Shown here: positions 30,011 through 31,370 of the stretch, piece after piece
Layout of the letters: every line of letters starts with the position of its first letter
Position numbering within the stretch: the first letter of the stretch is position 1
From: a virus
Length of the DNA: 34,044 nucleotides
Reading direction: 5' to 3' (one strand)
Virus record (IMG/VR): IMGVR_UViG_3300032288_000738
Span: 1 to 34,044 of that record
Program-made: the position numbers and the translations under genes
Notes under the pieces: generated by a model
Seen by the model: the letters and a program-made list of their open reading frames with translations, nothing else
Databases searched by the model: none
Told to the model about the DNA's origin: nothing

Positions 30011-30180
30011 TGCGCGGCATTTGGGCGATGCGTTGCAACAAGTGCGAGGCCGTCGTCATCCGTCTCCCCGACCGGACAGCCGGATGCCTGTGCGACCCCG
30101 ACGCACCCACATGGATCGCAATCCAAACGAACGGCAGGCTCATCACCATGTCACAAGCCGACTACGAGATCATCGACTGA
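30010..30180 (+). CDS. Small zinc-ribbon-like protein (56 aa)
   Basis: CNKC at residues 9-12 and CLC at about 27-29 could bind one zinc, followed by a short strand pair. ATG 30010 overlaps the preceding TGA and its own TGA overlaps ATG 30180. Such small ribbons are frequent in phage early operons and may bind nucleic acid or a host protein. Confidence 0.6.
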   Translation: MRGIWAMRCNKCEAVVIRLPDRTAGCLCDPDAPTWIAIQTNGRLITMSQADYEIID

Positions 30181-30638
30181 TGGACGAACGGAAGGGAGAA
30201 TGCGATGGCAACAAGGAGAAGTGTTCGCTTCCCGAATGCCCAAAGTACGGTTTGCTACGTCCAGCTAGCAAGGACGGGAAGCGACGGGTCAGGGGCTGCG
30301 GTGATCCTGTTGCACGAGGACAACGGAACCGTGCTAAGGGAGACGGGAAGGCTCGACGAGCGCGAAAGAAACTCGGTCTTACTGCGACAGGCAAGGCAGG
30401 TTCTCGGCACGAGGAACATTGGGCGGGTTTCTTTCGGGTGGAAGTCAAGGCGGGTGCCCAGATTGGCCCGATTGCTACTCGTTTCGCCGCTGCTCGTGCT
30501 CAGTCTGAGGCATCAAAGGCTTTGGGCGATATTCGACCGTTTCTAATGGTGGCAATGCCGGACGGAACTTCTGATGGAATCGTGCTGATGAGGTTGGAGG
30601 AGTTCGCAGAACTGGTTATGCTGGTCACACAGGCGTAA
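30180..30638 (+). CDS. Possible small nuclease/resolvase-like protein (152 aa)
   Basis: The N-terminal part has several Cys (CDGNKEKC, CPKYG, CGDP), a possible metal-binding knuckle, then an Arg/Lys-rich stretch (about 48-75). The C-terminal part, HWAGFFRVEVKAGAQ at about 83-97, has a VEVK like the catalytic strand of PD-(D/E)XK nucleases, followed by an Ala-rich helix and a MPDGTSDGIVLMRL end. A Holliday-junction or similar nuclease would fit the recombination operon. The motif is incomplete by eye, so the function is tentative; the gene itself is well supported by coupling and length. Confidence 0.6.
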   Translation: MDERKGECDGNKEKCSLPECPKYGLLRPASKDGKRRVRGCGDPVARGQRNRAKGDGKARRARKKLGLTATGKAGSRHEEHWAGFFRVEVKAGAQIGPIATRFAAARAQSEASKALGDIRPFLMVAMPDGTSDGIVLMRLEEFAELVMLVTQA

Positions 30639-30745
30639 GGTCAGTAGCACGGGTGCCCGAGTCCTAGTCTCGGGAGCTGACCTCCCCCACCCCATGCGGG
30701 CAATGCGCGAAGCATCAGGGGTGGGGGCGAGTCCCGGCACTACTG
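30639..30745 (+). ncRNA. Highly structured intergenic RNA candidate
   Basis: Fold A is a three-way junction. A closing stem CAGTAG-CA-CGGG (30642-30653) / CCCG-GCA-CTACTG (30733-30745) surrounds a hairpin CCCGAG/CTCGGG (30656-30674, 7-base loop). It also surrounds a very strong stem CCCCCACCCC (30684-30693) / GGGGTGGGGG (30718-30727), itself extended by ATGC/GCAT. Fold B pairs GGTCAG (30639-30644) with CTGACC (30677-30682), which cannot coexist with the closing stem. It starts right after a TAA stop and ends at a promoter-like element. It may be a switch, a processing site, a terminator without a T-run or a stable phage RNA. Confidence 0.5.
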
Positions 30746-30752
30746 CTAGGGT
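30744..30752 (+). promoter_or_regulatory. Extended -10 (TGC-TAGGGT)
   Basis: TGC followed by TAGGGT directly abuts the closing stem of the structured RNA, whose last base pair uses the TG of the element. TTAGGAGG overlaps the hexamer end and gives the transglycosylase ATG at 30765 a strong ribosome binding site, so a transcript starting near 30759 would lose that site. Expression from the upstream transcript is therefore also plausible. Confidence 0.35.
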
Positions 30753-30764
30753 TAGGAGGACCTG

Positions 30765-31370
30765 ATGCTGATGTTCCTGCGGCTCGGAGCCGTCGCCCTC
30801 ATGGGCGTGATTGGAACCGCCACCTACAAGGAAGCGGCCCACGCACCATCCATCCCACAAGACACGATCATCGTCGTGCCCGACAGGATCGCCCCAGACC
30901 CCGATTCCGGGGCTTCTGACGGGGGTATCAGCCGGATCGTGTTCCGGCATGGGGACGTTTCGTGGCTGCCCGTTCTGGCTGCCGAGGCAGGGTGGCCGGA
31001 AGCAACGTGGCCCCGGCTAGCGCACATCATCCTGCGGGAATCGGGCGGCTGCCCATACCGTCGAGGTGGGGACGTGGTGGACAAGGAATGCAATGTGCTG
31101 CGGGTCGCCACCCGTGTGAACCGGTCAGATACCGGGCTGATGCAGTTGAACGGTGTGCATTGGAAGCGCGACCACGCCAAGTATGAGGGGCTGGTGTGCG
31201 AGCGGATGGGGGTCTGCGATCAGGAAACGCTGATGGACCCGCTCACCAACCTGAAAGCCGGGTACCTGCTGTATTCGGTGGCTGGTTGGGCACCGTGGGA
31301 CCCGTGCCAATGGGGTCCGAAGTATGTGAAGCAATGCAAAAGCCTTGAAGATTGGCCTCCCGCCCCGTAG
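30765..31370 (+). CDS. Lytic transglycosylase-like protein with membrane anchor
   Basis: It would cut the glycan backbone of peptidoglycan. Residues 1-20 are hydrophobic and form a signal anchor or signal peptide; residues 26-60 are a Pro/Asp-rich linker. The SLT-like domain covers about 65-190: the catalytic glutamate lies in ILRESGG (Glu92), GLMQLN at 124-129 is the substrate-groove motif, and TNLKAGYLLY with a Trp-rich end follows. Cysteines suggest disulfides outside the membrane. It lies far from the endolysin and has a distinct domain, so it may act in entry, in superinfection control or as a second lysis factor. Confidence 0.75.
   Translation: MLMFLRLGAVALMGVIGTATYKEAAHAPSIPQDTIIVVPDRIAPDPDSGASDGGISRIVFRHGDVSWLPVLAAEAGWPEATWPRLAHIILRESGGCPYRRGGDVVDKECNVLRVATRVNRSDTGLMQLNGVHWKRDHAKYEGLVCERMGVCDQETLMDPLTNLKAGYLLYSVAGWAPWDPCQWGPKYVKQCKSLEDWPPAP

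Follow-up and report, generated by a model that had tools for sequence, protein, structure and literature searches.

A conserved pseudoknotted RNA element at the stop codons of unrelated phage genes

The 34,044 bases of the window, i.e. the whole stretch of DNA analysed here, make up one virus record, the contig of an uncultured phage, in which no tRNA genes were found. The element under study sits between a gene for a 152-aa protein and a gene for a 201-aa protein, with RecT- and YqaJ-like genes on its 5' side and WhiB-like and DNA methyltransferase genes on its 3' side. The upstream 152-aa protein matched no Pfam or PHROG family, and its RHEE..RVEVKAG stretch resembles a PD-(D/E)XK nuclease motif. 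The downstream 201-aa protein gave a weak Pfam SLT match (E 0.0012, under the curated cut-off). The genes and the parts of the fold are listed below in the order in which they occur.

30180..30638, + strand: upstream gene, 152 aa, with a Cys-rich N-terminus and the RHEE..RVEVKAG stretch; its stop codon lies within CGTAA
30634..30638, + strand: CGTAA motif, adjoining P1 on the 5' side; the 152-aa gene uses its TAA (30636-30638) as stop codon
30639..30645, + strand: P1, 5' strand GGTCAGT; 7/7 pairs with 30676-30682
30646..30649, + strand: J1/2 joining bases AGCA; at most 5 bases in all parsed members
30650..30653, + strand: P2 (pseudoknot helix), 5' strand CGGG; GGG:CCC nearly invariant, flanking pairs covary
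30656..30674, + strand: P3 hairpin CCCGAG-TCCTAGT-CTCGGG, from the RNAfold fold; outer pairs change on both sides
30656-30661/30669-30674, + strand: P3 stem, 6 bp
30676..30682, + strand: P1, 3' strand GCTGACC; same basis as the 5' strand
30683..30683, + strand: invariant T (U) joining P1' and P4; 39/39, but required by the search descriptor
30684..30727, + strand: P4 hairpin CCCCCACCCC...GGGGTGGGGG; outer 5 pairs 99.5% paired across the family
30684-30693/30718-30727, + strand: P4 stem, 10 bp
30728..30731, + strand: J4/2, CGAG; the position of C30728 is C in 35/39 and U in 4/39
30733..30736, + strand: P2, 3' strand CCCG; same basis as the 5' strand
30765..31370, + strand: downstream gene, 201 aa, secreted transglycosylase/lysozyme-like; Shine-Dalgarno sequence AGGAGG at 30754-30759

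Folding of the element strand with RNAfold gave a minimum of -54.7 kcal/mol (z -2.74), matched by 1/200 shuffles. The view of the first-pass annotation that a structured RNA occupies the site, one explained neither by coding nor by an ordinary terminator, is strongly supported. Its 6-bp stem is present as P3 and its stem of 10–14 bp as the 10 bp of P4. The window continues from P4 into CGAGTCCCGGCACT, so that the reported lack of a T-run behind the hairpin is also borne out, and a scan of the window for terminator-like sites listed none at 30639-30745. The element had been placed one base past the stop codon; no such spacer base exists, as the element starts directly at the stop and CGTAA belongs to it. 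The P3 hairpin falls between the strands of P2 and P1 and the P4 hairpin between those of P1 and P2, one per large loop. P1 and P2 interlock into an H-type pseudoknot, and the comparison of members backs this fold very well.

The element is almost certainly a member of a genuine RNA family. This family comprises 39 distinct members of about 100 bases each from IMG/VR; counts of 39 include L141 (the L120 element cut by a contig end) in all but the covariation count, where L418 replaces it. Compensatory changes in homologues, suggested earlier as a check, were indeed found. P1 is paired in 39/39 members (100% of cells), with changes on both sides in 7/7 pairs, and the outer four pairs of P3 are paired in 82.7% of cells with 4/4 changing on both sides. 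For the outer five pairs of P4 the corresponding values are 99.5% and 3/5, again over 39 members. The covariation score for the 16 pairs of P1, P3 and P4 was 0.689 compared to 0.199 in shuffled data (0/500 as high) for an alignment of 39 sequences fitted to the P1/P3/P4 model and hence biased toward those helices, and it dropped to 0.04–0.13 once the partner strand was slid. A MAFFT alignment of 23 members from the same gene junction, prepared without model fitting, gave 0.498 versus 0.197 (0/500), and P1 is kept in 23/23 distinct junction members. The pairs of P2 were counted in a hand-set register, with L007, placed in register by eye, omitted. Here, GGG:CCC is nearly invariant and thus uninformative for covariation. 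The inner (4th) pair is standard in 28/38 sequences versus 17.7 when shuffled (1/5000), and the next pair outward in 23/38 versus 15.3 (7/5000), the shuffles ignoring relatedness in both cases. G-U pairs are common in P1 (19/39 at one position) and would read A.C on the opposite strand; the RNA is therefore assigned to the + strand.

Hundreds of IMG/VR proteins are related to the upstream 152-aa protein (430, 322 and 474 per search, the best 80 of each kept), as is one from a GTDB contig, and a set of 50,697 phage records contains none. Searched against the same phage records by BLAST, the element and both neighbour proteins gave nothing useful. Behind the stop codons of the kept best relatives, 110 distinct junctions were read, 26 with the element and 84 without it, i.e. 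closely related phages can lack it altogether. A next gene was called in 22 of the 26 element-bearing junctions, almost always a secreted lysozyme-like one, and none was called in the remaining 4. Mapped on the tree of the upstream protein, the presence of the element changes 13 times, and at least 6 of these changes are forced by well-supported branches. A mobile element was rejected as the main reading, given one copy per record and a fixed place within a phage group, which leaves the forced gains and losses unexplained. Two additional features were observed around the start of the lysozyme-like gene. TANNNT, often TGnTANNNT (window 30744-30752), lies 14–21 bases ahead of the start in 20/21 junctions with the element and 41/44 without it, compared to 9/30 for other next genes; it is very close to the Shine-Dalgarno sequence, and an ordinary promoter there would leave hardly any leader. 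It may be a leaderless promoter. Right behind the start codon, a CGGCT..AGCCG inverted repeat (window 30780-30792; L142, L185, others) is a possible hairpin or operator, with both arms altered in L185 (CGGATTGTTACCG).

Outside this junction, a first pattern from three sequences returned 51 stretches, of which only those in two already known contigs were real, and a first loose descriptor found 493 places versus 273 in shuffles, which was uninformative; the descriptor was tightened afterwards. In the collection scan, only CGTAA, TCCCC, GGGGCGA and CCC were fixed and the letters of P1 were left free, which returned 78 stretches. Among the new loci, 27/39 distinct cores have 7/7 P1 pairs. Over all loci of the C-form it is 31/43, with at most 4 pairs in every other core. 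With the 5' strand of P1 displaced in either direction by 2, 3 or 5 bases, at most 1/43 cores reached 7 pairs. Forcing the base after P4 to be non-C yielded 7/7 P1 pairs in 2/31 distinct cores, both with U and none with A or G. A model built from the junction type alone recovers all members from the new settings (E 1e-12 to 1e-20). The rows dropped were chance matches in L065 and L148, all non-CGTAA rows of a second junction reading, L017, L041 and a minus-strand match in L131.

Taken together, the gene settings of the members are unrelated and number about eight. The element lies between a 252-aa gene and a capsid-like gene in L312, L313, L315, L320, L327 and L344, and between a gene with a product ending like WhiB (a name read from the sequence letters) and an ssDNA-binding-like gene in L373. 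Further new settings are L331, L333, L345, L374 and L317, the last with a convergent next gene. The upstream genes are unrelated across settings (the nuclease-like gene, the one ahead of the capsid-like gene, a WhiB-like gene and others). Exactly one copy was found in each of 28 distinct positive records by whole-record search, these being contigs of up to 171 kb and many of them fragments. Annotated phage proteins matched by tblastn are the basis of the capsid and ssDNA-binding names. Our guess that the hosts are Actinobacteria comes from relatives of the capsid proteins in Arthrobacter, Microbacterium and Cellulosimicrobium phages and of the ssDNA-binding proteins in Gordonia and Brevibacterium phages. 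No copy was present in ten phage records, most of them carrying related neighbour genes and nearly all belonging to named actinophages, where the model gave just two chance-level matches (E 0.33 and 0.84); the collection searched contains no cultured phage closely related to the element-bearing ones. Behind the element, at L312 6512-6673 and comparable loci, the leader of the capsid-like gene carries several short CCGGATGG-type repeats as well as a TTGACA..TATGCT pair spaced by 19 bases.

What the settings share is the position relative to the upstream stop codon, which falls -4 to +64 bases from CGTAA on the same strand in 39/39 members, although near-copies within groups mean that these placements are not independent events. 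Counted from the C of CGTAA, the first base of the stop is at +2 in 20/39, where the stop is the UAA of CGUAA itself. It is found at -3 or -4, directly before CGTAA, in 10/39, at +13 within J1/2 in 7/39 and at +64 within P4 in 2/39. By setting, the UAA of CGUAA serves as stop in L317, L331, L333, L345, L373, L374 and most lysozyme-type members. Stop-codon read-through was considered as well and rejected, the window frame closing at once (TAG 30645-30647). The promoter or ribosome site of the next unit is often just downstream of the element. Promoter-like pairs scoring at least 8 occur within 70 nt downstream in 13/39 members versus 3.1% of background windows, a contrast flattered by a background drawn from whole, mostly coding contigs. 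As a separate observation, in L331 (3357-3485) the upstream frame is open past the UAA of CGUAA, across the element and into the next gene.

Several bases recur throughout the family: CGUAA before P1, a U after P1', the CC:GG closing P4, and then YGA (Y is C in 35/39 and U in 4/39) and CCC. CGTAA is present in 39/39 parsed members, a share that is partly built in, as are those of the other bases, since the later searches were bound to TAA, T and GA, as the collection scan was to CGTAA; in the junction set it was not required and was read by eye in every element. CGUAA is also kept where the gene reads through it to a stop 13 bases in (L007, L103, L104, L115, L121, L267, L274). The invariants CGUAA, U, CC:GG and YGA cluster at the base of P1, where P4 joins, and invariants such as CGUAA and YGA exceed the needs of a simple block. 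Natural variants of the base behind P4, with U in place of C, were noted in L130, L199, L209, L271 and L418.

Rfam 15, searched with the window element and nine relatives, gave no relevant match at the gathering score or at E up to 5 / 3; the weak matches to the element are to miRNA families at chance level only. Likewise, an actinophage RNA of this sort is not described in the portions of the literature consulted. The RNA class is new, as no known family tested takes the element in and the closest, the HDV-like ribozymes, fails on a defining helix (see below). Its function may still turn out to be of a known kind.

Our tentative reading, with a probability of roughly 0.4, is a pseudoknot that acts in cis and marks the 3' boundary of the mRNA of the upstream gene. 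Action at the end of the upstream message is most likely because of the tie to stop codons, the lack of a single downstream function and the one convergent case. A ribosome sitting on the stop codon would keep the 5' strand of P1 covered. After the ribosomes have left, the pseudoknot would close directly behind the stop codon and, in its closed form, would set or protect the 3' end of the upstream message and separate it from the next unit. Such action may consist in holding or in cutting the message end. Several observations run against a 3'-boundary device: one copy per record in 28 records is odd for phages, which have many transcript ends; the stop codon lies inside the element in 9/39, so that the fit to stop codons is not strict; and closely related phages do without the element, with the 13 changes on the tree.

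The main rival to this cis-acting boundary is self-cleavage, i.e. a ribozyme with HDV-like helix order that would cut directly 5' of P1 and split the phage transcript between two genes, which we consider rather unlikely. In the window, the putative cut would fall right behind the stop codon. The order P1-P2-P3-P1'-P4-P2' with a P1/P2 pseudoknot is shared with HDV-like ribozymes, and so is P1, which has exactly 7 bp in all members as it has in HDV. In 35/39 members J4/2 opens with C directly behind P4, with an adenosine soon after, a candidate counterpart of the HDV-like catalytic C. Moreover, the invariants cluster at the base of P1, the place of an HDV-like active site, and the occurrence in phages, beside stop codons, in single copy and among varied genes resembles that of phage ribozymes. 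Conversely, the P1.1 helix of HDV, which makes a second nested pseudoknot, is missing, a single U separating P1' from the P4 5' strand in 39/39. The P3 of the family, with its free loop, is also longer than in HDV, and Rfam gave no HDV-type match. Ahead of the presumed cut the family keeps CGUAA, a sequence that HDV is not known to need there. According to the report on theta ribozymes (Kienbeck 2024, PMC10879173), a C-to-U change at the catalytic J4/2 C inactivates HDV-like ribozymes; in the present family U is accepted in 4/39, and L130, L199 and L209 carry U yet keep the stems. Given the absence of P1.1, the tolerance of U where the stems are maintained and the position of CGUAA on the 5' side of the presumed cut, the element was not filed as HDV-like.

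Theta ribozymes themselves (PMC10879173) have no P4, are often found behind tRNAs, with the cleavage site at the tRNA 3' end, and occur mainly in gut phages of Bacteroidota and Bacillota. Like the element, they are pseudoknotted phage RNAs, mostly in non-coding stretches and on the same strand as the neighbour gene, whereas the present family has a long P4 in 39/39 and sits at stop codons, in the case of the window without any tRNA. The same report uses a control like our comparison of C-form and non-C cores (7/7 P1 pairs in 31/43 and 2/31, respectively; PMC10879173), and the outcome here would speak for the ribozyme. The narrower proposal of a new self-cleaving RNA class of actinobacteriophages, with the HDV helix order but lacking P1.1 and cutting polycistronic messages exactly where the stop codon ends, seems unlikely.

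A trans-acting phage small RNA, cut from the message 3' UTR, free in its position and acting on a host factor or host mRNAs, appears improbable. It would suit the conserved core and the single copy in 28 records, at differing places in different phage groups, as well as the UCCUUU-like letters that L3 carries in 27/39 members (loose pattern) and that resemble the tail of 16S rRNA. However, these loop letters are missing in 12/39, for which reason anti-Shine-Dalgarno pairing of L3 was rejected as not universal. Furthermore, the element is always beside a same-strand stop codon and is preceded by coding sequence that shows no relationship from one setting to the next, leaving no promoter of its own at a fixed place.

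That the element is a riboswitch or other leader controlling the next gene is distinctly improbable. The window-type element does lie 17 bases before the Shine-Dalgarno sequence of the secreted lysozyme-like gene, and at this junction a next gene was called in 22/26 element-bearing cases, almost always one of this kind. Still, the next genes in other phages are unrelated (capsid-like, ssDNA-binding-like, others), neither a terminator nor a partner sequestering the Shine-Dalgarno sequence is visible, and in several settings a promoter-like pair stands between element and next gene. At L317 a leader role is excluded, since the element lies between convergent genes with no next gene on the same strand. 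The general topology is shared with preQ1-II and others, which are H-type pseudoknot riboswitches with an inserted hairpin; the element differs in having no Rfam match and, across the family, no constant type of downstream gene, including one convergent case.

An ordinary transcription terminator, possibly of the U-tract-free kind proposed for Actinobacteria, is very unlikely. The place at gene ends and between transcription units, the strong GC-rich hairpin P4 and the promoter-like pairs downstream would all agree with it, whereas most members have no T-run after P4 or P2', and the strict 7-bp P1, the pseudoknot, the invariant single-stranded bases and the single copy per record would be left unexplained.

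Lastly, a switch between two mutually exclusive folds, as proposed in the first-pass annotation, can virtually be dismissed, because the bases shared by its closing and alternative stems lie solely in an outer part that is not conserved. The 12-base closing stem is really a 6-bp and a 4-bp helix with an internal loop; the 4-bp part, CGGG/CCCG, is kept in relatives. The outer CAGTAG/CTACTG can form in the window and in L003, sharing three bases with P1, but reaches at least 5 pairs in 7/39 members compared to 7.3 on average after shuffling of the 3' flanks. The alternative stem GGTCAG/CTGACC does exist, with 7 bp (GGTCAGT/GCTGACC, 30639-30645/30676-30682), and rather than an alternative it is the helix that the family conserves best, kept in 39/39 and pairing alongside P2.

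In summary, the analysis adds an RNA family with near-perfect covariation that is absent from Rfam 15. Its tie to stop codons across unrelated genes would make it either a small RNA device with which phages fix the end of a message once the last ribosome has passed, or a further self-cleaving class with an HDV-like layout. If the self-cleaving reading were true, it would give rise to an mRNA whose last base is the end of its last codon.
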